A stretch of 64,000 bases of DNA from Mycolicibacterium tokaiense (GTDB lineage: Bacteria > Actinomycetota > Actinomycetes > Mycobacteriales > Mycobacteriaceae). Below the pieces are notes generated by a model. That model was not told where the DNA came from. It saw only the letters and a list, made by a program, of their open reading frames with translations, and ran no database searches. Below are positions 3,893-45,997 of this stretch, piece by piece (the first letter of the stretch is position 1; every line of letters starts with the position of its first letter). The translations under genes were made by a program, and so were the position numbers. The stretch lies in contig NZ_AP022600.1 of NCBI RefSeq assembly GCF_010725885.1, positions 2,666,001 through 2,730,000 of the forward strand. Reading direction: 5' to 3'.

Positions 3893-3893
3893 C

Positions 3894-5723: not shown

Positions 5724-5732
5724 GTGAGACCA

Positions 5733-6146: not shown

Positions 6147-6175
6147 ACGCGCGCCCGGTCGGGCAATCTAGGCGC

Positions 6176-7209: not shown

Positions 7210-7261
7210 CTCTTTGCCAGGCTGGTTGTGAGTCAGTTCGCAACCAGTTCCGGGAGGGGAT

Positions 7262-7690
7262 GTGTCGATCAGTGCAGGTTTCACGCCGACGGAGATTCGC
7301 GAGTTGGTCGTGGAGTATCAGTTGGTGCCGCATGGGCAGAAGGGGCCGTGGCTGGCTGCTTTGGGAGTGTCGAATCGCCAGTTCAGGCGGTGGCAGTCGG
7401 CGGTGTTTGACGGTGACCTCGACCTGATTCCGCGAGAGGGTAGCCCTATGACGGTTCCCCCGGCTCAACGCAGGGCGTTGGCCAAGGCAGAAGACGCCAA
7501 GCAGGCTCGTGATGAGGCCGAACTCGCGCGTCTGCAGGCGCGGGTCCGCGAACTCGAGGCGACCAATGAAGCGTTGGGAAAAGCTATCGGGCTCTTGCAC
7601 GAGAGGAACGCGCACGAGCCCGACGCCACCCCGACCACGATCGATCTCGACGATTCTTCGACCTCGAGAACGGACTCGTCGCCGAGCTGA
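7262..7690 (+). CDS. IS3-family transposase OrfA (helix-turn-helix and leucine zipper)
   Basis: 142 residues from the GTG at 7262, preceded by GGGAGGGG. The N-terminal 60 residues form a transposase_8/HTH region (LAALGVSNRQFRRWQ). Residues about 80-115 form a heptad leucine zipper (ELARLQARVRELEATNEALG) that dimerises the protein. The last 25 residues (DATPTTIDLDDSSTSRT...) overlap the orfB frame and are probably replaced when ribosomes shift to -1 to make the OrfAB transposase. Confidence 0.88.
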   Translation: MSISAGFTPTEIRELVVEYQLVPHGQKGPWLAALGVSNRQFRRWQSAVFDGDLDLIPREGSPMTVPPAQRRALAKAEDAKQARDEAELARLQARVRELEATNEALGKAIGLLHERNAHEPDATPTTIDLDDSSTSRTDSSPS

Positions 7691-7695
7691 CGAGC

Positions 7696-8691: not shown

Positions 8692-8698
8692 CAACGCC

Positions 8699-8727
8699 CG
8701 TGACCGGTTATCAGCGCGCCGAAATCA
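8699..8727 (-). repeat. Right terminal inverted repeat of the IS element
   Basis: The reverse complement reads TGATTTCGGCGCGCTG then ATAACCGGTCACG, the partner of 7181-7209. Its outermost TGA (8727-8725, minus strand) is the stop codon of the lipoprotein gene coming from the right. Confidence 0.85.
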
Positions 8728-11052
8728 CTGGGTGACGGGGCCGAGGTTCAGGAAGACGGTCTCTCCGTTGGCGTCGTCGAGGCCGTCGTTGTCGGTGACC
8801 ACATAGAGATTGCCGTTGCCGCCGACGGTCATGCCCTCGACCTTCTCCTGCACCCAGCCCTTGGGAGCCCGCAGGTCGGGCAACAGGTCACGCTGCAGCG
8901 TCTTGGTCAGCATGGGCGGTGCCTGCTCGGCCGAGGTGGAACCGGCCTCGTCGGGCAGTGACACCCGGTAGATCGCCTTGACGGCGGCATCGGGACCGTT
9001 GCGCTTGTCGCGTTCCAGGACCAGAAGTGCGCCGTCGTGCACGGCCACCTCGGACAACCCGATCCAATCACCCTCGGCGTCAGTGCTTTCCAGCGGGTAG
9101 CCGAACCACTCCCACTCACTGCTGGCGGGCGTGTAGCGACCCAGCCTGGCCGTGCCGGGTGGGTCGGACTTCAGCTCGCGCTGCACTGCCACCCAAACGG
9201 CGTCACCGTCGACGGCCACACCCTCGAGGCCCTGTGAACCCAATGCCGCGGCGATGTCTGCGGGCAGTGCGATGCGCTCTTCGATGGCGCCGTCGGCGGA
9301 CACCCGGATCAGCTCGTTGCCCGGGCCTTCCTCTCCTTCAACGGCCAGGTAGAAGCCCCCGTCGGGTCGCGCGGCGACACCTTCGACGTCCACTGTGACG
9401 GCCTCGCCGTTCTCGGTGACGGGTAGCGCGCTGTCGATCAGAGCCGGGCTCTGCGAAACATCGACTCCCAGAACGCGAGTGGGACCGTAGGCATTGTCGG
9501 TGGCGGTGAAGAGCCGGTTCTCGTCGGAGGGGTCGGCGCTCAGAGCGCCCAGCGCGCCCCACGGGATCGGCGCACCGTCCACATCGCCGGAGACGATCGA
9601 CGGGAACGCCACACTGTCGGCGGCGAACGCGTCACCGTAGCCATAGATGCTCACCGACGCGCGCACCTGCGCCTCGGCGTCGTCGGTCTCCGAGGAGATC
9701 ACCAGCAGGTCGCGCCCGGGAATCGGCAGAATGCCCTCCGGACCCGGGGTGGTGGGCAGGATCTGACGGAACACCGGCGCCGTGACGTCGGAAACGTCGT
9801 ACACCGCAACGAAGTTGCTGCGCTCGGATGCCACCAGTGCCACCGGCGTGCCGTCGAGTTCAGTGATCGCCAGGCCTTCGGGCTCGGGACCCTTTGCTTC
9901 GGAACGTCCTTCGATGTGCATGCCGGTGCGCACTGCCAGTTGCGAGAAGGAGTTGCCGGCATCCCAGACCACGTCCCCGGTGGCGGCGTCGAAGACGGTC
10001 CACCCGCGGGTGCCGCCCTTCCAGTCACCCTCGTTGGCAGTGGCCAGGTGGTCGTCACCGATCCAGCCGATGGCGTCGGGTTCGCGCGGCAGGTCGGCGA
10101 TGGAACCGCTCTGGTCGATGGTGCCGTCTTCGGCGGTGTCGATCCCATCCACCGACTGTGTTCCGGCACTGAAGATGTTGATCACCTCGCCGGTGCGGCC
10201 GTCGATGACTGCGACGCCGTTGTTCTCCTGCAGCGTGACCGCGATCTGGCCGCGGGAGTTGATGGTGACGTACTCCGGTTCGAGATCCTCGGGGGTGTCC
10301 AAACCGGCGGAGCGGGCAGCTTCGACATCGAAGTCGACCCGGCGCAGCTGCCACGCGTCCGGCGCGCCGCCCAGATCGAGTATCTGCACGAAGCCCGTCG
10401 GCGGCTGGGGCAGGTCACCCTCCTCGCCGCCCTGCGGGGTGAACTCCTCGTCGCGCTGATTCTCCATGGCGATGGCGGCGAACCCGCCATCGGCAGCCAG
10501 GGCGATCGAATCGGGCTGGCCCTGCAGATCGATGCTGCGCACCCGGCTGCGGTCGCTGATCCGCACGACGTCCAGGCGACCACCGGGGTTCGCGAAATCT
10601 CCTCCGCTGGTGTCGATCACGACGAGAACGAACTCGCCGGCGGCGATCACCGAGGTGGGCTGGTCGTCGGCGTCCCCGAGCTCGGTCAGCGACAAGGTGC
10701 CGAGTCCTTTCGGTGCCGCAGGATCGGTGATGTCGACGAAGCCGATGCGCTTGGCGGGGGCGTCGGTGTAAATGAGGGTGTTGCCGTCCTCGCTGACCGT
10801 CGAGATCTCGGCGACGGTCTCGGTCTCGACGGGCTCGCCCTCCGGCCGGTTCAGGTACACCGGGTAGGTCGCCTGCCGGTGGTAGCGCTGCGCTGCGGGG
10901 ATGTCGAAGTCGATGGGGGAGGTGGCGCGCGGGGTCTCCGGCGCAGCGGTGGGGTCGCCTGCTTCCGGCTCGGGTGACGACGACGAGCACGCCGCGGTCA
11001 GCAGCGTGACGGTGACAACGGCGGCTACTTGTCGCGGCGAGGACACGTTCAT
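8725..11052 (-). CDS. Esterase-like/phytase-family beta-propeller lipoprotein
   Basis: 775 residues. The N-terminal signal ends in a lipobox LLTAAC with Cys22 as the lipidation site, followed by a Ser/Pro/Glu-rich tether. The rest is built of repeated beta strands with VFDAATGDVVWDAGNS, PEGLAI and EGVAARPDGGFYLAVEGEEGPG segments, typical of the esterase-like phytase (PF13449) and WD40-like families. It is expected on the outer face of the membrane; its substrate is unknown (phosphoesterase activity would be inference). The stop codon is supplied by the IS right end, so the native C-terminus may have been trimmed. Confidence 0.8.
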   Translation of the reverse strand: MNVSSPRQVAAVVTVTLLTAACSSSSPEPEAGDPTAAPETPRATSPIDFDIPAAQRYHRQATYPVYLNRPEGEPVETETVAEISTVSEDGNTLIYTDAPAKRIGFVDITDPAAPKGLGTLSLTELGDADDQPTSVIAAGEFVLVVIDTSGGDFANPGGRLDVVRISDRSRVRSIDLQGQPDSIALAADGGFAAIAMENQRDEEFTPQGGEEGDLPQPPTGFVQILDLGGAPDAWQLRRVDFDVEAARSAGLDTPEDLEPEYVTINSRGQIAVTLQENNGVAVIDGRTGEVINIFSAGTQSVDGIDTAEDGTIDQSGSIADLPREPDAIGWIGDDHLATANEGDWKGGTRGWTVFDAATGDVVWDAGNSFSQLAVRTGMHIEGRSEAKGPEPEGLAITELDGTPVALVASERSNFVAVYDVSDVTAPVFRQILPTTPGPEGILPIPGRDLLVISSETDDAEAQVRASVSIYGYGDAFAADSVAFPSIVSGDVDGAPIPWGALGALSADPSDENRLFTATDNAYGPTRVLGVDVSQSPALIDSALPVTENGEAVTVDVEGVAARPDGGFYLAVEGEEGPGNELIRVSADGAIEERIALPADIAAALGSQGLEGVAVDGDAVWVAVQRELKSDPPGTARLGRYTPASSEWEWFGYPLESTDAEGDWIGLSEVAVHDGALLVLERDKRNGPDAAVKAIYRVSLPDEAGSTSAEQAPPMLTKTLQRDLLPDLRAPKGWVQEKVEGMTVGGNGNLYVVTDNDGLDDANGETVFLNLGPVTQ

Positions 11053-11127
11053 GGGGCACGAGCATCCCGGGCCGAGGTGCGCTCAGGGAACGGGTGGGTG
11101 AACGTCAGGGGACCCGGAGGTGACCAG

Positions 11128-13239
11128 CTAGATTGCGGCGGTGTTGATGGCCGCGACGATGTTCTCCTGGGTGAACGGCAGCGTGTGTACCCGTATCCCG
11201 AGGGCGTCGGCCAGGGCGTTGCCGATGGCGGCCGTGACGGGTCCCTGCGTCGCCTCCCCGGCGCCGAGTGACGGCTGATCCGGGCGGTCGATCACGTGCA
11301 CGTCCACCCGGGGCACGTCGGAGAACCGCGCGATCGGATAGGCCTCCCAGTCGGTGCTGGTGATGCCGTTGCGGTCGAAGCGGACCTGCTCGAGCAGCGT
11401 CCAGCTGGTGGCCTGGATGGCGCCGCCCTCGATCTGGTTGCGCACCCCGTCGGCGTTGACCACCCGCCCGACATCCACGGCGATGGTCAACCGACGGACG
11501 CGCAGCCGGTCGGTGGCTTCCACATCGGCCACCACCGCACAGTAGGAGCTGCGATTCTTGTACCGGCAGAACGCGATTCCGCGACCATGCCCGTCGGGCA
11601 CCGGGGTGCCCCAGCCGGCCTGGGCGGCGGCCGTGGTGAGCACATCCCTGGCGCGGGGGTCCGACAGGTTGGCCAGTCGCAGCTCCAGCGGGTCGCGCCC
11701 GGTCTCGCGGGCCAGGTCGTCGAGGACGGATTCCAGGGCGAAGGTGTTGAGCTGGCTGCCCAGTGACCGCAGCGACGAGGTACGGATGGGCATGGTCAGC
11801 AGGCGGTGCACCGTGACATCCACCCGCGCGATGTCGTAGTACGGTTCGGCGTTGCGGGCCGAGCCGTGGCCCCGCGCCGCCGGTGGGTCGACCGACGGGG
11901 GCAGGGCATCGGCGCCGTCGCGGTGGGCGTCGGCCAGCAGGCTGTGGCGCGGTGTGTACCCCGGCCGGGCGGTGTGGCCGTTGGTCCACAGTTGGTAGGA
12001 CAGATCGGTGATGATCCCGGATTCGTCGACGCTGGCCGCCAGATCGCCGACCATGGCGGGACCGTAGGGCTCCCAGGCGAATTCGTCACCGCGGCTCCAC
12101 TGCACCCGGACGTGGCGCCCAGGAACCTGCAGGGCCAGCAGGGCTGCGTCCATGGCCACGTCGTCGGCGGAGTTGTGGCCGTAGCTGCCCGGTCCTTCCA
12201 CGTGCTGCACCACCACGTCGGCGGTGTCCAGCCCCACGGCCGCGGCGATGGCCTGCCCCAGGGTGAAGACACCCTGGCTGTAGCTCCAGATGAACAGACG
12301 GCCACGGTCGAGAACTGCGATGGCGCAGCCGGGGCCGATCGATGCGTGCGCCAGGAACGGCCGGAAAAAGGTGCCGCGCACCGTCACCGGGCCGTTGTGG
12401 CGGGCACCGTCGGCGCGCACCTGACTGGTCTCGGCGGGGGCCGACCGCAGCCACCGGGACAGCTCGTCGCCGTCGGGCAGTTCGATGCCGGGCGACCAGG
12501 TGGCCGCCGCGGACAGAGCCTCGGCGGCGCGGGTGGCCTGCCCCTCGCGGCGGGCCAGGACGGCGAGGAGATCACCGTCGCGCACCACCTTCTCCACCCC
12601 GGGCATCATCGAGACACTCTCGGCAGCAATCACTTCGAGGTGGGCACCCGGTCGGGGCGGACGCACCACCCGGGCGTGCAGCATGCCGTCGAACTCCAGG
12701 TCGTGCAGGAAGCGCGGTCGACCGAACACCTTGTCGGGAAGATCAACTCGCGGCAGGTCCTTGGCGGTGGCCGGCGCGAACTCGACCGGCAGGGACTCGT
12801 CGCCGACCTCGACGTCCAGATCGACGGCAGCGGCGAGCTCTGCGTAGGAGCCGATGCGGGTGCCGTCGGCAGTGACGAAGACGCCGGAGGACAGCCGCAC
12901 TGCGGTGACGTCCAGCCCCGCTGTCTTGGCTGCGGCGCGGCGGAACAGCTCCCGGGCTTCCGCGCAGACCCGGCGGACCGCCGCGCCGGAGAAGGTGATC
13001 GACAGGCTGCCCGCGGTGAGTCCCTCATCCGGCGACGACGCGGTGTTGGTGGCGCCGGCGGTCACCGACTCCGGTGCGACGTCGAGTTCGTGAGCGGCGA
13101 TCTGAGTCAGGGCAGTCGTGATCCCCTGTCCCAGTTCCACTTTGCCGACCCGCAGCGCGACGGTGCCGTCCCCGGCGATGGTCAGCCACGTCGAGATCAG
13201 CCGGTTGGTGACCAGGGAGGCGGGCAGGTCGGTGGTCAT
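11128..13239 (-). CDS. Molybdopterin-binding large subunit, xanthine dehydrogenase/isoquinoline oxidoreductase family
   Basis: 703 residues starting MTTDLPASLVTNRL, overlapping the small-subunit stop (ATGA). Aldehyde-oxidase/xanthine-dehydrogenase features include VGKVELGQGITTALTQIAA near the start, EGPGSYGHNSADDVAMDAAL mid-protein, and the C-terminal SLGAGEATQGPVTAAIGNAL, which carries the catalytic glutamate. The length and the absence of a FAD domain fit the two-subunit IorB-like group, which oxidises N-heterocycles or aldehydes. The electron acceptor and substrate are unknown. The molybdenum cofactor could come from the moa/mog genes 7-12 kb away. Confidence 0.88.
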   Translation of the reverse strand: MTTDLPASLVTNRLISTWLTIAGDGTVALRVGKVELGQGITTALTQIAAHELDVAPESVTAGATNTASSPDEGLTAGSLSITFSGAAVRRVCAEARELFRRAAAKTAGLDVTAVRLSSGVFVTADGTRIGSYAELAAAVDLDVEVGDESLPVEFAPATAKDLPRVDLPDKVFGRPRFLHDLEFDGMLHARVVRPPRPGAHLEVIAAESVSMMPGVEKVVRDGDLLAVLARREGQATRAAEALSAAATWSPGIELPDGDELSRWLRSAPAETSQVRADGARHNGPVTVRGTFFRPFLAHASIGPGCAIAVLDRGRLFIWSYSQGVFTLGQAIAAAVGLDTADVVVQHVEGPGSYGHNSADDVAMDAALLALQVPGRHVRVQWSRGDEFAWEPYGPAMVGDLAASVDESGIITDLSYQLWTNGHTARPGYTPRHSLLADAHRDGADALPPSVDPPAARGHGSARNAEPYYDIARVDVTVHRLLTMPIRTSSLRSLGSQLNTFALESVLDDLARETGRDPLELRLANLSDPRARDVLTTAAAQAGWGTPVPDGHGRGIAFCRYKNRSSYCAVVADVEATDRLRVRRLTIAVDVGRVVNADGVRNQIEGGAIQATSWTLLEQVRFDRNGITSTDWEAYPIARFSDVPRVDVHVIDRPDQPSLGAGEATQGPVTAAIGNALADALGIRVHTLPFTQENIVAAINTAAI

Positions 13240-13724
13240 CGGCCCGCCGCCGAGTTGGCCGCCGCCAGCACCGCGTCGACGAAACGCTGGTGGGTCCCGC
13301 ACCGGCACAGGTTGCGGTCCAGCGCGGCGCAGACCTCCTCGCGGGTGGGGCGGGGGTTGTCGCGCAGCAACGCGACGGCGCTGACGATCATGCCCGCGAC
13401 GCAGTAGCCGCACTGTCCGGCCTGCAGTTCCAGGAATGCTGCCTGGACGGGATGGGGTGCATCCGGGGTGCCGACGCCGGCGAGGGTCTGCACCGGTCCG
13501 TGGACGTAATCGACGGGGGTGTCGCACGCCGGCGTGGGATGGCCGTCGATCAGCACAAAACACGCCCCGCACTGCCCCAGCCCGCACCCGAACTTCGGTG
13601 ACTTGTCGCCGATGTCGTTGCGCAGCACCTCGAGTAGCGAGGTGCCCGCCGGGACGTCGACGTCGTGGTCGCGGCCGTTGACGGTCAGCCGGAACGAGGC
13701 CAGATCGGCATCGGGTGCGCTCAT
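13236..13724 (-). CDS. (2Fe-2S)-binding small subunit of the molybdenum hydroxylase (IorA-like)
   Basis: 162 residues starting MSAPDADLASFRLTVNG. Two 2Fe-2S clusters are readable: the plant-type ferredoxin motif FGCGLGQCGACFVL plus a later Cys (TPACDTPVD), and the C-terminal helical motif QCGYC...NLCRCGTHQRF. It passes electrons from the Mo site of the large subunit. Its gene is first in the operon and overlaps the large-subunit gene by 4 bases. A LacI-type operator lies 34 bp upstream. An in-frame start at 13796 is possible but would overlap the operator. Confidence 0.93.
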   Translation of the reverse strand: MSAPDADLASFRLTVNGRDHDVDVPAGTSLLEVLRNDIGDKSPKFGCGLGQCGACFVLIDGHPTPACDTPVDYVHGPVQTLAGVGTPDAPHPVQAAFLELQAGQCGYCVAGMIVSAVALLRDNPRPTREEVCAALDRNLCRCGTHQRFVDAVLAAANSAAGR

Positions 13725-34496: not shown

Positions 34497-35951
34497 GTGA
34501 ATAAAACTGTCGGGCAGCTGACGGGGCGCCGCAAGGCGATCATCCTGTTCTCCTGCTGCCTGAGCCTGCTGATCGTGTCGATGGACGCCACCATCGTCAA
34601 CGTGGCCCTGCCGACCATCCGCACCGACCTCGACGCCTCGGCGACGCAGTTGCAGTGGACCCTCGACATCTACACGGTGGTGCTGGCGTCGCTGCTCATG
34701 CTGGCCGGCGCCACTGCCGACAGGTTCGGCCGGCGCAGGGTGTTCCAGATCGGCTTGACGGTGTTCGCGCTCGGCTCGCTGCTGTGCAGCCTGGCGCCCG
34801 GCATCGAGATGCTCATCGCTGCCCGCTTCGTGCAGGCCATCGGCGGGTCGATGCTCAATCCCGTGGCGATGTCCATCATCACCTCGGTGTTCACCGGCAA
34901 GGTGGAACGAGCCCGGGCCATCGGCATGTGGGGCGGCGTGCTCGGCATCGCGATGGCGCTGGGGCCGACGGTCGGTGGGGCGCTGATCGAATACGTGGAC
35001 TGGCGGGCGGTGTTCTGGCTCAATCTGCCGGTCTGTCTGCTGGCGCTGGTCCTCACCGCGATCTTCGTCCCGGAGAGCAAGTCGGCCACCATGCGCGACC
35101 TGGACCCGATCGGTCAGATCCTGGGCGTGGTGTTCCTGTTCGGAATCGTGTTCGTGCTCATCGAGGGCCCTGGCCTGGGGTGGACGGATCCGGTGACGCT
35201 GGTCGCGTCGATGGTCACCGCAGTGGCCTTCGCGGTGTTCCTGCGGTTCGAGTCCCGCCGCCACGATCCCTTCATCGATCTGCGCTTCTTCCGCAGCATC
35301 CCGTTCGCGTCCGCGACGGTGACGGCGATGTGCGCATTCGCCTCCTGGGGTGCCTTCCTGTTCATGATGGCGTTGTATCTGCAGGGCTTCCGGGGCTTCA
35401 GTGCGTTGCAGACAGGTCTGCTGTACTTGCCGATCGCCCTCGGCGCGCTGATCTTCTCCCCGCTGTCCGGCCGGGTGGTGGGACGCTTCGGTCCCCGGCC
35501 GTCGCTGCTGGCGTCCGGGGTCTTGCTGACGACGGCGGCGGTGCTGCTGATGCTGCTCGACGCCGACACCCCCATCTGGGCGGTGCTGGTGATCTTCGCG
35601 GTGTTCGGCATCGGCTTCTCGGTGGTCAACGCCCCGATCACCAACACCGCCGTCAGTGGGATGCCGCTGGACCGCGCGGGCGCGGCCTCGGCGGTGGCAT
35701 CCACCAGCCGGCAGGTCGGCGTGAGTATCGGTGTGGCGCTGTGTGGTTCGGTGGCAGGGGCGGCGCTGGCCTCACCGCACGTGGACTTCGGTGCCGCGGC
35801 GCGTCCGCTGTGGTTCGTGGTGGCCGGCTTCGGCATCACGATCTTCGTGTTGGGGCTGTTCTCCACGTCGGCGCGTGCGCAGCGCTCGGCTGACCGGGTG
35901 GCACCACTGATTGCCGCCAAGCCCGGGGAGAAGGCTCATGCACTCGGCTGA
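34497..35951 (+). CDS. MFS drug exporter, EmrB/QacA (DHA2) family
   Basis: 484 residues, 14 predicted membrane segments. The motif MDATIVNVALPTIRTDL (TM1 motif D1), LAGATADRFGRRRVFQIGL (motif A), and LGIAMALGPTVGGALIEYVDWR (motif C, marking antiporters) are all present. Likely a proton-coupled drug exporter; drug unknown. It starts with a GTG without an RBS, consistent with a leaderless transcript. It overlaps by 14 bases with the MarR gene, its probable repressor. Confidence 0.93.
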   Translation: MNKTVGQLTGRRKAIILFSCCLSLLIVSMDATIVNVALPTIRTDLDASATQLQWTLDIYTVVLASLLMLAGATADRFGRRRVFQIGLTVFALGSLLCSLAPGIEMLIAARFVQAIGGSMLNPVAMSIITSVFTGKVERARAIGMWGGVLGIAMALGPTVGGALIEYVDWRAVFWLNLPVCLLALVLTAIFVPESKSATMRDLDPIGQILGVVFLFGIVFVLIEGPGLGWTDPVTLVASMVTAVAFAVFLRFESRRHDPFIDLRFFRSIPFASATVTAMCAFASWGAFLFMMALYLQGFRGFSALQTGLLYLPIALGALIFSPLSGRVVGRFGPRPSLLASGVLLTTAAVLLMLLDADTPIWAVLVIFAVFGIGFSVVNAPITNTAVSGMPLDRAGAASAVASTSRQVGVSIGVALCGSVAGAALASPHVDFGAAARPLWFVVAGFGITIFVLGLFSTSARAQRSADRVAPLIAAKPGEKAHALG

Positions 35952-36348
35952 CGAGGTGTGGAAGGACCTGGCGCGGTACGTCTTCGACAACCGTGACGTA
36001 TGGAAGCGCGCCGTGGTCGAGGTGTCCGGGCTGCCGTTCTCCCGGGTGCGCATCATCACCCGGTTGGGTCGCTCGCCGCTGACGATGAAGCAGGTGGCCG
36101 AGTTCGCGATCATCGACGCACCGGCGGCCACCGTCGCCGTCAACGATCTGGAGTCGCGCGGTCTGGTGGTGCGCGAGATCGACCCCGCCAACCGGCGCTC
36201 GAAGTTGGTGTCGCTGACCGAGCGGGGCCGTCAGGTGGTGGCCGCCATCGACGCGGTCGACGACCCGGCGCCCCCGGCGGTGCGCCAACTCGACGCCGAG
36301 CAACTGGCCGCGCTGCGCCGCATCGTCGACACGCTCACCGGGTCATAG
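35938..36348 (+). CDS. MarR-family transcriptional regulator
   Basis: 136 residues starting MHSADEVWKDLARYVFDNRD, RBS GGGGAGAAGG. Winged-helix region at about 35-105: LTMKQVAEFAIIDAPAATVAV, NDLESRGLVVREIDPANRRS and LVSLTERGRQVV. Overlap with the exporter gene gives translational coupling and suggests local repression of it via the TTGT/ACAA operator. It ends 14 bases into the convergent oxidoreductase gene. Confidence 0.92.
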   Translation: MHSADEVWKDLARYVFDNRDVWKRAVVEVSGLPFSRVRIITRLGRSPLTMKQVAEFAIIDAPAATVAVNDLESRGLVVREIDPANRRSKLVSLTERGRQVVAAIDAVDDPAPPAVRQLDAEQLAALRRIVDTLTGS

Positions 36349-37876
36349 TCGCCAGCACAGCCATGGCCGCGTTGTGGCCGCCGATGCCCGAAACCGCGCC
36401 ACCGCGGCGAGATCCGGAGCCGCACAACAGGATCCGATCGTGTTCGGTCGCCACCCCCCAATGTTGCGCAGGGCTCTCGAGTAGTTCGTCGTCCTCGGCG
36501 AACGGCCAGCTCAGCCCGCCGTGAAAGATGTTGCCCGCCGTCATGCCCAAGGTGTTCTGCAGATCGAGAGTGGTCTTGGTCTCCAGGCACGGCCGGCCGT
36601 CGGCCGCGGCCAGGATCAGGTTCTGAACGGGTTCGGCCAGAACAGAATTCAACGATGTCAGCACGGCGTCGGTGAGCTGTTGCCGGATCACGGCGGGCTC
36701 GGCACCCGCAGTCAGCGAGTGGGGGGTGTGCAGCCCGAACACCGTCAGCGTCTGGGCGCCCGATGCCTGCAGTCCGGGGGACAAGATCGACGGATCGGAC
36801 AGAGAGTGACAGTAGATCTCACACGGCAGCGGATCAGGAATGGTGCCGGCGGCCGCCTGCCGGTAGGCGGTGTCGAGTTGGCTCCAGGTCTCGTTGATGT
36901 GGAAGGTGCCGCCGAACGCCTGTTCCGGCGTGACCGATCCGTCGCGCGACTGCGGCAACCGCCGCAGCAGCAGGTTGACCTTGACCTGGGCCCCCGGTGC
37001 CGCCGGCGGAGCGGGCTCGCCCATCAGCTCGGCGAGTACCGTCGGGGTGACACCTGCCAGCACGAAACGTGCGCTGTCGGTGACGATCCGGTCTTCCATC
37101 CGGTAGCGCACGCTGCCGTCGGGCTGCACCGACGTGACCTCGGCGCCGGTCACCAGGCGGGCGCCGAACCCGGCGGCGGCGCCGGCCAGCGCGTCGGTCA
37201 CAGCCCCCATTCCGCCGACGGGCACATCCCAGTCCCCGGTGCCGCCGCCGATCAGGTGGTACAGCAGACAGACATTCTGGGTCAACGAGATGTCGTCCAG
37301 CGTGGCGAAGGTGCCGATCAAGGCGTCGGTGGCGATGACGCCGCGGACCAGATCGCTGCCCACCGCGGCGGTGATGGCGTCCGCGGCAGGCGTCTCCACC
37401 AGCGCATCCCAGGCTGCATCGTCGCCCACGCGGGAGCGGGCCTGCGACCGGGTGGGCAGCGGCTCCAACAGAGTGGGCCACAACGGCTCGGTGACCCGGC
37501 GCGCCCGCTCATAGAACTCGGCGAAACCAGCGGCGTCGGCCTCGGCGCCCACGGCCGCGAACGTCGGGTCAGGGCCGATCAGCAGCCCGGTCTCACCCGC
37601 GCTCGCCGGGTCCGGGGTGTACGACGAATACCGCCGCCGGGCCAGGCGCACCGAGATGCCCAGATCGTCGAGGATGCGCGGCGGCAACAGGCTCACCAGA
37701 TAGGAGTAGCGGGACAGCCGCGCGTCCACCCCGGGGAAGGCAGGTGCGGAGACCGCCGCCCCGCCGGTGTGGTCCTGGCGTTCCAGCACGGTGACGCGCA
37801 GCCCCGCCCGCGCCAGGTAGGCCGCCGCGGTCAGGCCGTTGTGCCCGCCGCCGACGATGATGACATCGGTGTCCAT
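36335..37876 (-). CDS. FAD-dependent oxidoreductase, PYROXD2/phytoene-desaturase-like (Rv0897c-like)
   Basis: 513 residues. N-terminal FAD dinucleotide-binding motif VIIVGGGHNGLTAAAYLARAG then VLERQDHTGGAA. The C-terminus carries GGLSWPFAEDDELL and ILLCGSGSRRGGAVSGIGGHNAA, the second FAD-contacting segment. It resembles PYROXD2 and the phytoene-desaturase fold. It lies next to gltA as Rv0897c does in M. tuberculosis. Substrate unknown. Confidence 0.88.
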   Translation of the reverse strand: MDTDVIIVGGGHNGLTAAAYLARAGLRVTVLERQDHTGGAAVSAPAFPGVDARLSRYSYLVSLLPPRILDDLGISVRLARRRYSSYTPDPASAGETGLLIGPDPTFAAVGAEADAAGFAEFYERARRVTEPLWPTLLEPLPTRSQARSRVGDDAAWDALVETPAADAITAAVGSDLVRGVIATDALIGTFATLDDISLTQNVCLLYHLIGGGTGDWDVPVGGMGAVTDALAGAAAGFGARLVTGAEVTSVQPDGSVRYRMEDRIVTDSARFVLAGVTPTVLAELMGEPAPPAAPGAQVKVNLLLRRLPQSRDGSVTPEQAFGGTFHINETWSQLDTAYRQAAAGTIPDPLPCEIYCHSLSDPSILSPGLQASGAQTLTVFGLHTPHSLTAGAEPAVIRQQLTDAVLTSLNSVLAEPVQNLILAAADGRPCLETKTTLDLQNTLGMTAGNIFHGGLSWPFAEDDELLESPAQHWGVATEHDRILLCGSGSRRGGAVSGIGGHNAAMAVLATMTR

Positions 37877-37903: not shown

Positions 37904-38392
37904 TCAGGCGTGGGTCCCCGCCGCCGCACAGGCCGACTGTGCGGCCTCGGTGTGCTCGTTGAGTTCGGTGGCCACCGTGTTGAAGCGGTCCACGTCGGCA
38001 CGTAGACCCATCAGCAGCACCAGCTTGGTGGCGCCCAGCGACCAGGCCCGCATGGGAGAGGCGATCTCCGCGGTCAGCCCAGGGGTCCGGGAGGCCGCCA
38101 GCGCGGTGCCCACGGCGTGGCGCAGCCCGGTGCGTCCGGAGGTGTTGCTGGCGTTGAGCTCCGGATCCCCGTGCTGGTCGCCGAGGGCCAGCCCGTTGGC
38201 GAAGCTCTGGTAACTCAGTGACGCCATGTCCAGCGCGGTCGCGAACTGAGTGCAGGCGGCCACCGCGTCGGCGCTGGGCGCCGGTTCGGCCGCGGCCACA
38301 GCAGCGCCGGTCAGGGCGGCGGCCACGCCGATTCCGCACGCGGTCAGCCCGGCGGCGACGTTGATGATGGTGGGCTCCCGTCCGGTGGGCAT
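37904..38392 (-). CDS. Exported hypothetical protein with four cysteines
   Basis: 162 residues from the ATG at 38392 (MPTGREPTIINVAAGLTACG); an upstream start at 38461 is less likely. The signal segment runs to about residue 37 (AALTGAAVAAAEPAP). The mature part is helical, with CTQFATALDMASLSYQSFAN and a C-terminal TEAAQSACAAAG. One cysteine near each end of the mature part could form a disulfide. No family recognised. It is divergent from the mspA operon. Confidence 0.72.
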   Translation of the reverse strand: MPTGREPTIINVAAGLTACGIGVAAALTGAAVAAAEPAPSADAVAACTQFATALDMASLSYQSFANGLALGDQHGDPELNASNTSGRTGLRHAVGTALAASRTPGLTAEIASPMRAWSLGATKLVLLMGLRADVDRFNTVATELNEHTEAAQSACAAAGTHA

Positions 38393-38576
38393 GGCTGCCT
38401 GTGACGATCCGGGGTGCCGGCGTCGGCCGGGTGACGCCGGCGTGAACGCCCGGTGAGTCACCGGAAACGAGTAAGCGACGGCGGTTGTCCGCGCACAATT
38501 CGCCGGCCGTTTGCTGTCCTGACATTTACCACCCCGATGATTTCAGTCGAATCGAGGCTGAAAGGGCGGCATATCC

Positions 38577-39245
38577 ATGCGGATCCCTGCGTGCGTCGCT
38601 GCTGCGGTGACGTTGTCGGCGGTGCTGTGCGCCGCGCCGCCTGCCGGCGCGGAGCCGGCCCCGTTGCCACCCGCGGTGGCAGATGCCGCGCCGCCGCCGA
38701 ACGGGGCGACAGCCGCGGCGGCTCCCGGCGTGCTGTCCACCCCGGACGGGTGGGAACTGACCGTCGCCGGCGCCGACGAGACCCGGGTGGCGGTCGCACC
38801 GCTGACGACGGCGCTGACGTCGCGCGAGTACCTGGTGGGCGGCACCTTCACCGGCACCGTCGCCGGTGCGGGGTCCACCACGTTGAGCGGAGGATCGCTG
38901 GTGGTCGGCTACCGGATCGGCTGCGGCATCATCGGCGGTCCGGTGGAGCTCCTCGGTTCTGTGGGTGCCACACCGACATTCGGCTCCAACGCAGTGATCG
39001 GCGCAGTGCAGTTTCCGGTGAACGGGCAGATCAAGGTCAACCTGAGGCCGGGGACGGTCACCACCGTGCCAGTGGGGCAGAAGGATTACAAAGGTGACGA
39101 GGTGCGGGTCACGGTGACGGGCTTCCGGGTACGGGTTGACGGCTGCGTGGGGCAGTCCTTCATCCAGTCGTATGCCACCTTCAAGAGCTCGAGCACCGAC
39201 ACCGACGACATCGTTACCTACGCCGGTCAGGTCACCGTCGTATGA
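38577..39245 (+). CDS. MspA-family porin-like protein 1
   Basis: 222 residues. Signal peptide 1-25 (MRIPACVAAAVTLSAVLCAA, cut near AGAEP), a Pro/Ala linker to about 55, then an MspA-like domain: DGWELTVAGADETRVAVAPL, TSREYLVGGTFTGTVAG, LVVGYRIGCGIIGGPVELLG. MspA proteins are octameric porins of the mycobacterial outer membrane. Unlike MspA it has two cysteines in the mature part (YRIGCG and DGCVGQ) that could be disulfide-bonded. First gene of a six-gene exported-protein operon; it overlaps gene 2 as ATGA. Confidence 0.85.
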   Translation: MRIPACVAAAVTLSAVLCAAPPAGAEPAPLPPAVADAAPPPNGATAAAAPGVLSTPDGWELTVAGADETRVAVAPLTTALTSREYLVGGTFTGTVAGAGSTTLSGGSLVVGYRIGCGIIGGPVELLGSVGATPTFGSNAVIGAVQFPVNGQIKVNLRPGTVTTVPVGQKDYKGDEVRVTVTGFRVRVDGCVGQSFIQSYATFKSSSTDTDDIVTYAGQVTVV

Positions 39246-39904
39246 GAACCGCACTGGCCGCGGCCGTTCTGCTGTGCCTGGGGCTGTGCACCGCACCAGG
39301 CGCACGGGCCGAGCCGGTCGCCGATGTGGCGCCCGTCGCCGACGTGGTGCCCCCGCCGCCCAACGGTGCTGTCGCCTCCGATCCTCCGGGTTTTGTTGTC
39401 ACGCCGGATGGTTGGGAGCTGACCGTCGGCGCCCAGGACGAGACGCAGGTGGCTGTCGCCCCGCTGACCACCGCGGCGTCGTCGCGCGAATACCTGGTGG
39501 GTGGCACTTTCACCGGCGCCGTGGCGGGCAACGGCACCGCCCCCGTGGAGGGTGGCACTCTCGAGGTCGGTTATCAGATCGGCTGCGGCATCGAGTTGAA
39601 CGTCGTCAAACTCAACGGTTCGGTGGGGTTCCAGCCCTCCGTCGGGCCTACCGGTCTGGGCAACACCAACATTCCGGTGACCGGGCAGATGGAGGTGTTC
39701 CCGCAACCCGGTGAGGTCATCACGTCCACGGTGACCACCAAGAGCTTCGAGGGCGCCGCGCCCAGGGTCACCCTCAAGGACATCCACATCAAGATCGACG
39801 GCTGCATCGGCCAGTCTTTCCTGCGCTCGTACGCGATCCTCACCAGCTCCACCGAAACCGCCGACGACATCGTGGCGTACTACGGCGTTGCCAAGGTGGT
39901 GTGA
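39242..39904 (+). CDS. MspA-family porin-like protein 2 (paralogue of protein 1)
   Basis: 220 residues. Signal peptide 1-22 (MRTALAAAVLLCLGLCTAPG), then the same layout as its neighbour: DGWELTVGAQDETQVAVAPL, SSREYLVGGTFTGAVAG, LEVGYQIGCGIELNVVKL, IKIDGCIGQSFLRSYAIL. The conserved cysteine pair is again present. The two genes arose by tandem duplication (clearly similar over full length) and overlap by 4 bases. The products could form a mixed oligomer. Confidence 0.87.
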   Translation: MRTALAAAVLLCLGLCTAPGARAEPVADVAPVADVVPPPPNGAVASDPPGFVVTPDGWELTVGAQDETQVAVAPLTTAASSREYLVGGTFTGAVAGNGTAPVEGGTLEVGYQIGCGIELNVVKLNGSVGFQPSVGPTGLGNTNIPVTGQMEVFPQPGEVITSTVTTKSFEGAAPRVTLKDIHIKIDGCIGQSFLRSYAILTSSTETADDIVAYYGVAKVV

Positions 39905-39905
39905 G

Positions 39906-40322
39906 GTGCTACTGAAAGTCTGTGCGGGCGTGGTGATCATGCTGGTGTCGTCCCCAGCGGGGACGGCCGCCGCCGAACCGTCGCCGGTGCCGCCCCCGCC
40001 CCCGTCGCCGGCCTCACTCGGCGAGGTGCTGGGCCAGTACGCGGTGCCGTCGGTTCCCGGCGCGGCCACGCCCGTTGTGCCGAATCTGAACCCGTGGAAC
40101 AACCAGTACCTGTTGCCACAGAACGAATCGCCGGCTGCACCCGGGCAGGGTCAGGTGTTCGGCGTGCCGCCGGGGCAGGAGAACGCCAATGTGTCCGGCA
40201 TCGACTATCTGAAGCGGTTGGTGGACACGTACCGGGCCGGTGGTCTCGAGGGTGCCCTGCTGGGGCAGAACCCCGTCGAGGGTGTCGGCAAACCGATTCC
40301 CGTCCCGCCTCCTCAGTCGTAG
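39906..40322 (+). CDS. Secreted proline-rich protein with RpfA-like C-terminal motif
   Basis: 138 residues from the GTG at 39906, one base after the previous stop. Signal 1-24 (LLKVCAGVVIMLVSSPAGTA). PVPPPPPSPAS follows, then a C-terminal stretch ENANVSGIDYLKRLVDTYRA with GGLEGALLGQ. That tail resembles the C-terminus of RpfA in this window ([13 protein letters not shown] then G...LFALAQ). No enzyme motif. Function unknown; part of the mspA operon. Confidence 0.78.
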   Translation: MLLKVCAGVVIMLVSSPAGTAAAEPSPVPPPPPSPASLGEVLGQYAVPSVPGAATPVVPNLNPWNNQYLLPQNESPAAPGQGQVFGVPPGQENANVSGIDYLKRLVDTYRAGGLEGALLGQNPVEGVGKPIPVPPPQS

Positions 40323-40332
40323 GGAAAAACAC

Positions 40333-41190
40333 ATGCGCTCAACATCTTTCGCAGCACCGGTCATGTCCGTCGCGGTGGCAGCCGGCGTGCTGATGCCCGG
40401 CGGTGAAACGCCCGCGGCGCCGCTGCTGACCCCATCGGCATCTCCTGCGTTCCACCGCCCGCAGGTCGCGCTGGCGGCATGGACGTCGCCTGGTACCGGA
40501 CCCGTGCCGCCGACTGTTCTTCTCCAGGAGATGGTCGCGGCCGCGAGCGCGCCGGCGCCCGGGTCGCAGCGCACGGCCGCGGTTGAGCCCATGGCCGACG
40601 AGGTGGTGGCCGACCCGGCGCCGACCCCGTTGACCCCCATCGACGTCATCGACGCCATCGGGGCGGCCGCATACCTGGCGGTGGCGGGGCCGCTGCTGGT
40701 GGTCAGCATCCCGTTCCAGGTGATCACGGGTCAATCCGAGGACATCGTCGTCTCGTTGAACAACCTGATCCAGGCAGCCAACACCATCCTGAAGCTGGTC
40801 GGCCGCTCCATCGCACCCATTCCCGTCCCGTCGGCGCAGGACGTCGCGGAGGCCTCCCCTGTGGTGGAGGTTGCAGCGGAGGACACCGATGACGCGGATG
40901 TTCGCGACGCCGAGGAGCCGGAGACCGAACACAGCGACGAGAGTGTGAGCACCGACGACACCGAGGGCGCCGAGGACATCGAAGAAGTGGACGGGGCCAA
41001 CGAGACCGAGGACAGCGACGAGACCGAGGACACCGACGAGACCGAGGACACCGACGAGACCGAGGACACCGACGAGACCGAGGACTGCGACCAGACCGAG
41101 GACACCGACGAGACCGAGGACACCGAGTCGGCCACCGACGACACCGAAGCACCGGACACCGGCGCCGAGTCCGATACGGTCACCGGGTGA
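40333..41190 (+). CDS. Exported acidic repeat protein
   Basis: 285 residues after AGGGAAAAAC. The N-terminus is signal-like (SFAAPVMSVAVAAGVLM). A hydrophobic, conserved-looking mid part (about 98-160: PLTPIDVIDAIGAAAYLAVA, PLLVVSIPFQVITG, NNLIQAANTILKLVG) precedes a Glu/Asp/Thr-rich C-terminal half with seven DETEDT-like hexapeptides (about 223-264). The tail is very acidic. It may bind cations or reach through the cell envelope (inference). No family recognised. Confidence 0.78.
   Translation: MRSTSFAAPVMSVAVAAGVLMPGGETPAAPLLTPSASPAFHRPQVALAAWTSPGTGPVPPTVLLQEMVAAASAPAPGSQRTAAVEPMADEVVADPAPTPLTPIDVIDAIGAAAYLAVAGPLLVVSIPFQVITGQSEDIVVSLNNLIQAANTILKLVGRSIAPIPVPSAQDVAEASPVVEVAAEDTDDADVRDAEEPETEHSDESVSTDDTEGAEDIEEVDGANETEDSDETEDTDETEDTDETEDTDETEDCDQTEDTDETEDTESATDDTEAPDTGAESDTVTG
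40999..41124 (+). repeat. Seven tandem 18-bp repeats encoding DETEDT
   Basis: The unit GACGAGACCGAGGACACC occurs seven times in direct register, four copies identical and three with one to three changes. It encodes the acidic hexapeptide Asp-Glu-Thr-Glu-Asp-Thr. Copy number is likely to vary between strains. It has no spacers and is not a CRISPR. Confidence 0.95.
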
Positions 41191-41480
41191 CGGTGCGTGT
41201 GGCCATGTGCGCGGCAGCTGGCCTGCTGCTCGCCGCGGCGCCGGCGGCGGCCGAGCCGACGTCCACCGCACCGCTGCCCGAACCCCCCATGGCCGGCACA
41301 CAACTGCCCGTCGACGCCATCGAGACTCTCGGCAGGCAGGGTTATGACGTCGAGATCGAATGGGTCAGCGGATATCCGTCGAACATTCCGCTGAAGTACT
41401 GCCAGGTGACCAATATCGATGTACACGCAGCCCCGCTGGCGTACATCATGATCTCCTGTCCACCGGACACCTCCCAGTAG
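41187..41480 (+). CDS. Small exported two-cysteine protein 1
   Basis: 97 residues, GTG overlapping the previous stop (GTGA). Signal 1-22 (TVRVAMCAAAGLLLAAAPAA). Mature part: Pro-rich start, then AIETLGRQGYDVEIEWVSG, YPSNIPLKYCQVTNIDVH and YIMISCPPD, with two cysteines likely joined. Closely similar to the next gene (both GYDV...PSNIPL...C...APLAY/SPLAY..CPPD), so a tandem duplication. Function unknown. Confidence 0.8.
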   Translation: MTVRVAMCAAAGLLLAAAPAAAEPTSTAPLPEPPMAGTQLPVDAIETLGRQGYDVEIEWVSGYPSNIPLKYCQVTNIDVHAAPLAYIMISCPPDTSQ

Positions 41481-41494
41481 TAGGAGACCCACCG

Positions 41495-41782
41495 ATGATG
41501 TTCAGGATGATCGTGGCCGGCAGCGCTGCGTTCCTGGCGGCCGCGCCCCCTGCTTCGGCGGAGCCGTCGCCCACGCTGCCCCAGCCACCGCCCGCAGGCA
41601 CCGAGTCACCCGGTGACACCCTGCGCAGCCTCACGGCGCTGGGTTATGACGTGAAGGCGCAGTACACCGCGGGCGCACCGTCGAACATCCCGCTGTCGGA
41701 GTGCACGGTCACCGGCATCGACACGCACGCCTCTCCGCTGGCTTACGTGATGATCAACTGTCCGCCCGACGGCTCGCAGTGA
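41495..41782 (+). CDS. Small exported two-cysteine protein 2 (paralogue of the preceding gene)
   Basis: 95 residues with RBS TAGGAG. Signal 1-22 (MMFRMIVAGSAAFLAAAPPA). Mature part: LRSLTALGYDVKAQYTAG, PSNIPLSECTVTGIDTHA and YVMINCPPDGSQ. It shares the cysteine spacing and GYDV/PSNIPL motifs with its neighbour. It ends one base before the stop of the convergent DUF2630 gene (41784). Confidence 0.8.
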   Translation: MMFRMIVAGSAAFLAAAPPASAEPSPTLPQPPPAGTESPGDTLRSLTALGYDVKAQYTAGAPSNIPLSECTVTGIDTHASPLAYVMINCPPDGSQ

Positions 41783-42690: not shown

Positions 42691-43914
42691 TCAGCGCATC
42701 CGGTGCAGCAGGCTGCGGGCAGTGGCCGTCACCAGTTCGCGGTCATAGGTGATCACGAAGTCGAAGCGACGGTCCCCGTCGGCGCAGGGCGCCGCACCCC
42801 GCTCGCGTTCCCGCTCGCGCGCGATCAGCGCGGCGGCGGTGTGCGGCCCGAGCGCGACCACCGTCCACTCGAGGCTCAGTGGATCGTCGCTGGTCAGGCT
42901 CACCCCGCGGATGCCGTCGCCGGGTTCCTCGACCATCCCCTGACCGAACACCGCCACCAGCGGTGATGTCCGGGCCAGGTCCCTGTAGCGCCTCAGGGTC
43001 CGCGGGGTCAGGTACTGCAGTCGTTGCAGCGCCGCCAGAACCATCGGAGGATCGGCTGCCCGCTGCGCCTGGGTCTCGATGTGCCGGGAGAACGCGACCA
43101 CGGTGCTCTTGCGGGCGGTCCGCACCCGGTGATGGTCCTCCACCAGACCGAAGGGCGACGCGGACGCCGGTGCGGCCGGGGGTGGGCGCCGTCGCACCGC
43201 GCTCCACGACCCCGCTGAGTCGCCCAGAACCCCCGGCCTGCCGAATCGGTAACCCTGCCCCAGGTCTGCCCCCAGCGCCAGGGCCTGCTCCAGGTGTTCA
43301 TCGCTCTCGATGCCCTCGGCCAGGATCAGTGCCCCGGTGCGTTCGTGATGGGCCAGGATGGCCGAGAGGGTCTGCGCCTGCTGGACATTGGGTTGCGATT
43401 GCACCAGGGCCAGGTCCAGCTTCATCACATCCGGTGAGATGATGTCCAACAGCGCCGACGAATCCGGATGTGCGCCAACGTCATCGAGCGCGATGAGGAA
43501 CCCGTCACGCCGCAGTGCTGCCACCTTCTGCAGCAGCAACCGCGGCTGGGACAACAGCCTGCGCTCGGTGATCTCGAACATCACGGCCAGTCCGTCGCGG
43601 GTTGCCAGGGCGGGCTGGCGTGCCATCGGTGACAGGTAGGGACTCGACGGTTCGCAGTTCACCGAGAGCACCAGATCGTCGGCGATGCCGGCGTGCAGTG
43701 CCGTGTCGATGGACGCGTCGATGCACATCTGGTCGAGGGCGTCGGCGCGGCGGTGGGTTCGCGCGTGGGCGAACACCGTGGCCGGGTTCAGGTGACCGAA
43801 CTGCGGCCACCGCGCCAGCGCTTCATAACCCACCACGGATTCATCGCGCAGGGCGACGATCGGTTGGTAGGCGGGCATCAGTCCCTCGCCGCGTATCGCG
43901 GCGTCGATTGTCAC
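42691..43914 (-). CDS. EAL-DICT protein, probable c-di-GMP phosphodiesterase
   Basis: 407 residues. The EAL domain (about 8-235) has the metal and catalytic set intact: GYEALARW (EAL), LSVNCEPSS (Asn), MFEITERRL (Glu), IALDDVGAHPDSS (Asp-Asp), DVMKLDLAL (Lys) and LAEGIESDEH (Glu). The C-terminal DICT sensory domain (about 255-400) includes TVVAFSRHIETQAQR and DFVITYDRELV. DICT domains are thought to sense light or redox signals. Likely hydrolyses c-di-GMP. Starts with GTG. Confidence 0.9.
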   Translation of the reverse strand: MTIDAAIRGEGLMPAYQPIVALRDESVVGYEALARWPQFGHLNPATVFAHARTHRRADALDQMCIDASIDTALHAGIADDLVLSVNCEPSSPYLSPMARQPALATRDGLAVMFEITERRLLSQPRLLLQKVAALRRDGFLIALDDVGAHPDSSALLDIISPDVMKLDLALVQSQPNVQQAQTLSAILAHHERTGALILAEGIESDEHLEQALALGADLGQGYRFGRPGVLGDSAGSWSAVRRRPPPAAPASASPFGLVEDHHRVRTARKSTVVAFSRHIETQAQRAADPPMVLAALQRLQYLTPRTLRRYRDLARTSPLVAVFGQGMVEEPGDGIRGVSLTSDDPLSLEWTVVALGPHTAAALIARERERERGAAPCADGDRRFDFVITYDRELVTATARSLLHRMR

Positions 43915-43925
43915 AATTGCCGAAC

Positions 43926-45278
43926 TTACCGTGTGGTGGGCTCAGGGCCGGGTAGGCGCAGTATCAGCCGGGCGCCGCCCAGCGAGCTCGTCTCCAATGT
44001 TGCTGTGCCGCGGTGCAATTGAGCCTGCTGGGCGACCAGGGCCAGGCCCAGGCCGGAGCCGGAGTGTGATGCCGTGGAGCCGCGGGAGAATCGTTCGAAG
44101 ACCAGTTCGCGTTCCTCTTCGGGCAATCCGACGCCGTTGTCGTCCACGGCGATCTCCACCCCGGCCCGCGAACTGACCGCGGACAGCCGCACGTGGGTGG
44201 CGCCGCCGTGCTTGACCGCGTTGGCGATCGCGTTGTCCACCGCCAACCGCAGCCCGGCCGGCAGTCCGACGATGATGACGGTGGGTGCGGGCACCAGCGC
44301 CACCTCGAGATCGGGATAGATGCGCATGGCGTCATGCGCTGCCCGGTCCAGCAGTTCGGTGATGTCGACTGCCGCGTGGTCATCGGAGGTGGACAATTCA
44401 CCCTGGGCCAGCCGTTCCAGCGCCCACAGCGTGGCCTCGATACGCGACTGGGTGCGCACCACGTCGTCGAGCACTTCTTTGCGCTGTTCCTCGGGCATGT
44501 CCAGCGTGGCGAGCACCTCGATGTTGGTGCGCATGGCTGTCAGCGGGGTGCGCAGTTCGTGGGAGGAGACCGCCGCGAAGTCGCGCGCCGACGCCAGGGC
44601 TTCCTGGGTACGGGCCCGTTCGGTCCAGACCCGCTGGACCATGCCGCGCATCGCCTCGGCGATTTCCACCGCCTCGGAGGCGCCGCGCACCTCGATCTCC
44701 GGGGCCTCGTCGTCGACGACGTCGATGGTGCGGGTCTGCTGCGCCAGTCGGCGCAGCGGGCGCACCGCGAACGCTGCCAGCAGCCAACCCAGCACCGCGG
44801 CGGCGCCCACTGCGAGCCCGCAGATCATCAGCACCCGCCGGTGCAGGTTGTTGGTGTCGTTGATGGTGGCGTCATAGGTGGCCCCGACAGCCACCGACAT
44901 CGGACCCGTCGGCCCGACGATGTCGACCGTGCGCACCCGGTAGCGCACGCCGTCGATCTCGGTGTCGGCGTAGTCGGTGTCCAGCTGCGGCAGGACGACG
45001 TCGCCGGTGGACTTGACGTCGCCGTCGCGGCGCACGGTGATCACGGCGTCGGCGCCGTTGGGGGAGCGGGGAATCTCGTCGAGCCCGCGCGGCAGGAAGG
45101 GGATCGCGAAACCTGCGGCCTCGTCGAGGCGCCGGTCGAGCCGTTCCTTGCGGTCATTGGTGATACCGACCCACACGATGGCGCCGACGATCGTCACCAC
45201 GATGGCCGCCCCGAGTGCTGTCGCGAACGCCACCCTGGTGCGCAGCGAGGGCGTCCGAGTGAAGATCCGCGACTGCAC
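43926..45278 (-). CDS. prrB: Sensor histidine kinase PrrB
   Basis: 450 residues from the GTG at 45278. TM1 at about 17-38 and TM2 at about 148-170 bracket an extracytoplasmic sensor region. A HAMP region (RPLRRLAQQTRTID) precedes the DHp domain with the phosphorylated His in AAVSSHELRTPL (H240). The ATPase domain follows: N box DNAIANAVKHGG, G1 DDNGVGLPEEERE and G2 GSGLGLALVAQQ. It phosphorylates PrrA; the pair is essential or growth-supporting in mycobacteria. Encoded 8 bp downstream of prrA. Confidence 0.95.
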   Translation of the reverse strand: MQSRIFTRTPSLRTRVAFATALGAAIVVTIVGAIVWVGITNDRKERLDRRLDEAAGFAIPFLPRGLDEIPRSPNGADAVITVRRDGDVKSTGDVVLPQLDTDYADTEIDGVRYRVRTVDIVGPTGPMSVAVGATYDATINDTNNLHRRVLMICGLAVGAAAVLGWLLAAFAVRPLRRLAQQTRTIDVVDDEAPEIEVRGASEAVEIAEAMRGMVQRVWTERARTQEALASARDFAAVSSHELRTPLTAMRTNIEVLATLDMPEEQRKEVLDDVVRTQSRIEATLWALERLAQGELSTSDDHAAVDITELLDRAAHDAMRIYPDLEVALVPAPTVIIVGLPAGLRLAVDNAIANAVKHGGATHVRLSAVSSRAGVEIAVDDNGVGLPEEERELVFERFSRGSTASHSGSGLGLALVAQQAQLHRGTATLETSSLGGARLILRLPGPEPTTR

Positions 45279-45286
45279 GGGCGGGC

Positions 45287-45997
45287 CTACTGCGTCCTGA
45301 GCACGAATCCCACCCCGCGCACGGTGTGCAACAACCGCGGTGCGCCGCCGGCCTCCAGCTTGCGGCGCAGGTATCCGATGAAGACGTCGACGACGTTGGT
45401 GTCGGCGGCGAAGTCGTAACCCCAGACCAGCTCGAGCAGCTGGGCGCGCGACAGCACCGCGGTCTTGTGTTCGGCCAGGACGGCCAGCAGGTCGAACTCC
45501 CGCTTGGTGAGATCGACGTCGACGCCGTTGACCCGGGCCCGGCGGCCCGGGATGTCGACTTCCAGCGGGCCCACCGAGATGGTCTCCGACGAGAACGTGG
45601 CGGTGGCGCCGCGGCGGCGCAGCAGGGCTTTGACCCGGGCCACCAGCTCGGCCAGGACGAACGGCTTGACCAGGTAGTCGTCGGCGCCGGCCTCCAGGCC
45701 GGCCACCCGGTCGTCGACCGAGCTGCGCGCCGAGAGCACACACACCGGTACGTCGTTGTCCATCGCCCGCAGCGCGGTCACCACCGACACCCCGTCCAGG
45801 ACGGGCATGTTGATGTCCAGCACAATCGCGTCGGGGCGGGTCTCGGTGGCGCTGCGCAGGGCCTCGGCGCCGTCGACGGCGGTGGAGACCTCGAATCCGG
45901 ACAGCCGCAGCCCGCGCTCCAGCGACGCCAGCACGTCGGCATCGTCGTCGACCACCAAGACCCGGGGTGAGCCCGCACCACTGTCCATGCCCGACAT
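45287..45997 (-). CDS. prrA: Response regulator PrrA
   Basis: 236 residues, same length as M. tuberculosis PrrA, starting [13 protein letters not shown]; a second Met at 45988 is possible. Receiver domain with DDD acidic pocket and phosphoacceptor Asp61 in [10 protein letters not shown], conserved Lys in YLVKPF. The OmpR-type winged helix ([37 protein letters not shown]) binds DNA. It is divergent from the ABC gene at 46091. Confidence 0.96.

Follow-up and report, generated by a model that had tools for sequence, protein, structure and literature searches.

A paired MspA-like porin module with conserved exported companions in Mycolicibacterium tokaiense and its genus

Tandem pairs of porin genes of the MspA family (PF09203) are already described, in the available text of two reports, for Nocardia, Rhodococcus and Mycobacterium abscessus (PMC9233653, PMC10243398). 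In Nocardia farcinica, the PF09203 pair NfpA/NfpB forms a hetero-oligomeric cell wall channel that reportedly needs both subunits; these proteins are only distantly related to MspA, and the accessible part of the report names no companions (PMC9233653). In Rhodococcus ruber, PorARr and PorBRr are encoded by two PF09203 genes, one directly following the other, in a presumed single operon, and each protein forms pores alone; neither companions nor a charge reversal is mentioned in the same partial text (PMC9233653). MAB_1080 and MAB_1081 of M. abscessus are tandem Msp-type porins of a mycobacterium, detected by an anti-MspA antibody according to the excerpted source (PMC10243398). Our comparison with these three pairs is by description only. 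Here we analyze a stretch of 64,000 nucleotides from Mycolicibacterium tokaiense (the window; positions 2,666,001 to 2,730,000 of NZ_AP022600.1), in which two MspA-like porin genes, porin A (38577-39245, + strand) and porin B (39242-39904, + strand), are followed by g3, a gene for a Pro-rich exported protein (39906-40322, + strand, GTG start). A first-pass annotation of this locus had contrasted it with classical mspA loci as single genes, a contrast that the published tandem pairs do not bear out. It also left out a conserved gene just upstream on the opposite strand, divergent from the porins, that encodes an exported protein of the PF27150 family (37904-38461, − strand; the true start possibly lies inside the open reading frame). 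Literature searches restricted to open-access papers listed none whose title or abstract describes such a PF27150-A-B-g3 module, the PASTA-like partners or the reversed ion pair, which does not prove their absence.

Gene order and co-retention across the genus, as computed from the genomes, point to a conserved unit that is a four-gene core: the divergent PF27150 gene, porin A, porin B and g3. Alignments of g3, porin B and the divergent upstream protein served as queries against 198 genomes of the genus. g3 was found at 93 places in 79 of the 198 genomes, and at 81 or more of these places a listed MspA-like gene precedes g3 on its own strand by no more than 3.5 kb, a lower bound because at least 150 MspA-like places were listed. 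Counting two places read later at locus L109, 83 of the 93 are linked to porins. Of the remaining ten, five sit at the end of a contig, L110 and L111 among them, and the other five have no pair (L108 and L112-L115); two of the five genomes with a pairless g3 (G105 and G032) have a porin and PF27150 elsewhere (L164 and L163). When only the 31 named loci found by g3 alone are considered, both porins precede g3 in 25, the contig breaks off within five, and one has no porins. PF27150, the family to which the window's upstream protein belongs, by a precomputed assignment carried by all 120 listed homologues in its alignment, occurs at 82 places in 78 of the 198 genomes, and 73 of the 82 are divergent from a listed MspA-like gene and within 3 kb of it. 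Among the other nine, two proved adjacent to porins once the locus was read (L109 in G166, L162 in G044), two are cut by contig ends (L167 in G140, L163 in G032) and those in G139 and G127 share the strand of the porin. In five genomes first scored as having PF27150 without g3, a diverged g3 (31-38% identity) follows a pair.

The porins themselves are kept together within this core. Among 45 unique intervals from PF27150 to g3, taken from the loci fetched by then that have both genes on one contig in the correct orientation, 43 hold exactly two porin genes, a retention of two adjacent MspA-type genes that resembles NfpA/NfpB, with three lone B-type genes elsewhere. Of the two other intervals, that of Mycobacterium sp. 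DL99 (L065) has neither porin and retains the PF27150 gene, g3 and two small proteins, and that of L048 contains three pieces, its second gene being split. None of the 45 keeps just one porin gene. The A-B-g3 order recurs across the genus and the module flanks vary among lineages. The conserved gene order that the first-pass annotation proposed to look for holds for the porin pair and mostly for g3; the three downstream genes g4, g5 and g6 vary between lineages. Three loci show further arrangements. The second porin gene of L048 (G139, 8709-9404) lies in two frames, through a frameshift or a sequencing error. In L119 (G055, 5900-13300), two complete A-B-g3 units stand in tandem after one PF27150 gene, which suggests that the A-B-g3 triplet duplicates as a block. 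In L162 (G044, 3500-8000), two same-strand A-B pairs flank one PF27150 gene, and behind one of the pairs come a diverged g3 and a gene for an FKBP.

Porins A and B of the window score 136.8 and 152.2 bits against PF09203 (cut-off 22.9) and are 54% identical to each other, in agreement with the first-pass reading of two paralogous MspA-family proteins. On the NCBIfam MspA equivalog NF053716, whose cut-off is 280 bits, they reach only 17.2 and 29.5 bits, and we class both, on sequence, as MspA-like proteins and not as MspA orthologues. Across 301 genomes of the family, the profile of porin B picks up MspA-like proteins in 19 of 31 genera. The predicted structure of porin B is an MspA fold with the rim and stem hairpin of Mycobacterium smegmatis MspA (matches PDB 1uun and 2v9u), and its stem residues alternate between polar and hydrophobic. 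The porins here differ from M. smegmatis MspA in having 27% identity to it, a shorter stem tip and a cysteine pair that is invariant in both A and B. Between aligned marks the hairpin measures 43 residues in A and 42 in B, compared to 61 in a classical MspA of the same genome. We take MAB_1080 and MAB_1081 to be close to classical MspA.

In a tree of 108 MspA-family sequences, the 41 A proteins form one clade (bootstrap 97, Shimodaira-Hasegawa-like approximate likelihood ratio test, SH-aLRT, 90), one or two changes are required to account for the 41 B proteins, and a third clade holds 17 further members, which come from 16 short loci with one MspA match and from the third gene of L123. The 41 loci were picked among loci with two porin genes and include the duplicates L044/L063 and L077/L129, leaving 39 distinct; L048, with its split second gene, and some other fetched pairs were omitted. 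A is located 5' of B in all 41 loci, within-locus identity between A and B is 41-64%, and the two retain fixed differences and show no convergence. The tree indicates that A and B descend from an old duplication whose copies have not merged since.

What most clearly separates the two porins is a charge reversal. Requiring opposite charges in the two porins in 12 or more of the 41 loci leaves only two alignment columns; in the window these hold E124 and K153 in A and K123 and E151 in B. The reversal is complete in 39 of the 41 loci (21 E-K/R-E, 16 E-K/K-E and 2 D-R/R-E); the two exceptions are sister branches that have lost both A charges and the basic B charge. It is also complete in all 13 further pairs (L124, L168-L172 and L176-L182), including pairs without g3, which were fetched later or left out earlier and played no part in finding the pattern. 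In the porin B model, the stem strands span residues 104-128, 131-134, 140-143 and 146-156 and are symmetric about residue 137, so stem partners are expected to sum to 274; 123 and 151 give exactly this sum, and K123 and E151 are thus predicted to face each other across the B hairpin, on its polar side. The same positions are mostly Thr or Ser in the 17 further members and Asn and Asp in three other porins of the genome, so that the stem pair is E-K or K-E in A and B compared to N-D in the classical MspA genes of this genome. That Asp presumably corresponds to D118 of MspA, a residue known from nanopore work to face the lumen. Shuffling by label swap (300 shuffles) gave at best 29 of 41 loci, compared to the observed 39, a weak control because A is a clade, and one showing only that charge tracks the A/B label. 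Stronger arguments are that the two residues pair exactly across the strands and that all 13 later pairs show the reversal.

We tentatively favor, at somewhat less than even confidence, the interpretation that the module encodes a two-subunit MspA-family outer-membrane channel with a dedicated exported companion. A and B, each with the rim and stem of the MspA fold, would act as a pair, and each subunit would place one ion pair across its hairpin strands inside the barrel, with opposite polarity in A and B; through this reversed polarity, the pair could set the charge pattern of the lumen and the contacts between subunits. We infer the type of oligomer, as well as the roles of g3, PF27150, g4, g5 and g6. 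One mixed A/B ring seems slightly likelier than two separate rings, although the lone B-type genes lowered our confidence in the mixed ring from even to just under even and raised that in separate rings by a trace. g3, an extended Pro-rich protein, would be the usual periplasmic or cell-wall partner, a tether or an assembly factor, together with the PF27150 protein. In the lineage of the window, the module would have gained small PASTA-like proteins and an acidic protein, which probably face the cell wall. It is conceivable, at about one chance in three, that the conserved reversed ion pair is an assembly code for neighboring subunits and that g3 and the PF27150 protein form a dedicated apparatus for both the assembly and the cell-wall attachment of mycobacterial MspA-type porins.

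Several observations weigh against a mixed ring with a dedicated companion. Of the 150 MspA-like places that were listed, 31 lie apart from any g3 place, and we fetched 17 regions from these. Thirteen of the 17 have A adjoining B, or a cut pair, and in ten of them no g3 was found (L168-L172 and L176-L180; in L172, PF27150 is on the same strand); L118 is likewise an A-B pair with no g3 nearby. L181 is a module already known as L158, and L182, L183 and L184 are cut by contig ends. Because at least ten A-B pairs lack g3, it appears that g3 is not required by every pair, and conversely g3 stands without a pair at five of its 93 places. A B-type gene stands alone in L173 and L174 (both in G148) and in L175 (G156), whose genomes also carry the module, which suggests that B may work without an adjoining A; no lone A-type gene was present among the 17 fetched regions. 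Two of these lone genes (L173 and L175) retain the B polarity and that of L174 is uncharged at both positions. The idea that the two porins never occur apart therefore holds for the 45 intervals and is ruled out in general by these three loci. The charges themselves also speak for separation. In a simple ring geometry, with the barrel assumed by analogy to shear by some two residues for each subunit, these residues lie close to where a subunit's last strand adjoins the first strand of its neighbor. A ring of like subunits would then alternate charges all the way around, and an A-B boundary would set K beside K or E beside E, so that A and B would repel as neighbors and like subunits would attract. 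Some genomes that have a full module elsewhere carry a further A-B pair lacking both g3 and PF27150, in L118 (G091), L177 (G050), L178 (G189), L179 (G168) and L180 (G146), and these second pairs are closely alike.

The main rival explanation, to which we give a little over one chance in three, is that A and B are two separate homo-oligomeric porins that are made together. The ion pair would then be an insulation code by which A joins A and B joins B, and the two rings would differ in ion or solute preference. Within the hairpin the charges attract in both proteins, and across the boundary only like neighbors attract; the full reversal, seen in 39 of 41 loci, in 13 of 13 further ones and also in pairs without g3, and the three lone B-type genes agree with this, as does the description of tandem R. 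ruber PorARr and PorBRr acting as two separate pore types when mixed (PMC9233653, available text). The same partial source nevertheless reports that NfpA and NfpB need both subunits (PMC9233653), the barrel shear is an assumption, and the lack of a single-porin interval among 45 exceeds what two independent porins would need. The proteins could also be ordinary general-diffusion porins that arose by tandem duplication, and the remaining exported genes could be merely co-transcribed and unrelated in function. Tandem MspA paralogs are described in the accessible text on M. abscessus (PMC10243398), g4 and the small proteins are variable, and A-B pairs without g3 exist, but we regard this as improbable since g3 and PF27150 stay with the pair though other neighbors differ, and A and B keep fixed differences with no convergence. 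We give still less weight, and very little, to the possibility that A and B are non-pore proteins that use the MspA fold to bind a ligand or the cell wall: the shortened hairpin would suit such a role, as would the lack, in the window's A and B, of any acidic residue in the stretch that the charged columns flank, but the predicted stem is present and alternates polar and hydrophobic residues.

In the window, the porins and g3 belong to six packed genes on the + strand (38577-41782). As the first-pass annotation noted, neighbors overlap or are at most 14 bases apart: A and B overlap by 4 bases, B and g3 are separated by 1 base and g3 and g4 by 10, g4 and g5 overlap by 4, and g5 and g6 are separated by 14. 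All six proteins have the hydrophobic N-terminal stretch expected of exported proteins (best 19-residue Kyte-Doolittle mean 1.35-1.98), and A and B alone exceed a Pfam cut-off, that of PF09203. The further description of a Pro-rich protein, an acidic repeat protein and two paralogous two-cysteine proteins was borne out by composition, repeat structure and identity. The proposal that all six genes encode one complex was not: g4 is confined, among the loci fetched and by tblastn, to close relatives of the window, and many modules have no small proteins. We rejected a six-gene unit because the presence of g4 and of the small proteins changes from lineage to lineage.

The g3 protein carries LxQxxxPxxPG repeats that recur at 28-29 residues, and the 11 members checked have no Pfam match. 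It is not a universal protein of the mycolata, since only 11 of 301 family genomes have it, ten of them in the genus of the window; the one match outside the genus is marginal (G342, E-value 8.8e-4) and covers only the Pro-rich part. In L112-L115, a g3 paralog without porins lies directly 3' of a gene for a short protein with one membrane-like stretch, and three of these four loci also encode, nearby, a small exported protein that contains cysteine. This second setting may hint at a partner of g3.

g4 (40333-41190, + strand) encodes an exported protein with a conserved hydrophobic segment, whose best stretch begins at residue 108, and an acidic repeat tail; 51% of its last 100 residues are Asp or Glu, and an 18-base tandem repeat of 7.1 copies lies within the gene (41000-41126, + strand). 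g5 (41187-41480, + strand) and its paralog g6 (41495-41782, + strand) encode small exported proteins that share 54-55% identity; the mature part of each holds two cysteines, an invariant pair. The model of g6 is a helix followed by three strands (predicted local distance difference test, pLDDT, 72), the arrangement of PASTA domains such as those of PknB, PonA2 and PBP2x, and 18 of its 19 listed structural matches are PASTA-bearing chains, with a best Foldseek E-value of only 0.41. The small proteins are tentatively predicted by modeling to have a PASTA-like fold, expected for g5 from g6. They differ from known PASTA domains in being stand-alone, in their invariant cysteine pair and in the lack of a profile match: the PASTA profile, which we take to be PF03793, matched none of 62 small-protein members at E-values up to 1. 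A search of solved structures with the small-protein profile gave only weak unrelated matches (E-values 0.11 and 0.24), and Pfam matches to HTH_39 and PepSY_2 (best E-values 0.0021 and 0.0045) were taken as chance. The g5/g6 family occurs in 71 of the 198 genomes, in some modules and not in many others, and 10 of 20 loci fetched around small-protein matches have no porin pair. Because relatives are encoded apart from any porin pair, we rejected a role as specific porin plugs; of the two functions suggested in the first-pass annotation, plug or anchor, the predicted fold suits an anchor better.

The M. tokaiense genome is one contig of 6.33 Mb with seven PF09203 genes above the cut-off. Larger stretches around the other five loci, searched by tblastn, contain no companion gene except for a weak 38-bit Pro-rich match on the opposite strand near one of them. 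Scans for Sigma-70 promoters and terminators found nothing clearly exceeding shuffled sequence. Upstream of the module (35911-37876) are an open reading frame for a MarR-type regulator, read by eye, and a gene for a carotenoid-enzyme-like flavin adenine dinucleotide (FAD) oxidoreductase, which stays beside the module in several close relatives. Open reading frames 3' of an FKBP gene (42691-45743) resemble, by eye, an EAL-domain protein and a sensor kinase.

To our knowledge, the insertion and retention of proteins in the mycobacterial outer membrane are little understood. In Corynebacterium, two outer-membrane proteins are described as linked to the cell wall in the available part of a recent report (PMC12632848). 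An exported protein that recurs beside a porin pair is a direct candidate for a factor of outer-membrane insertion or retention. The reversed ion pair offers a way to test what leads paralogous ring subunits to select their neighbors, and it could be of use in the design of MspA nanopores.

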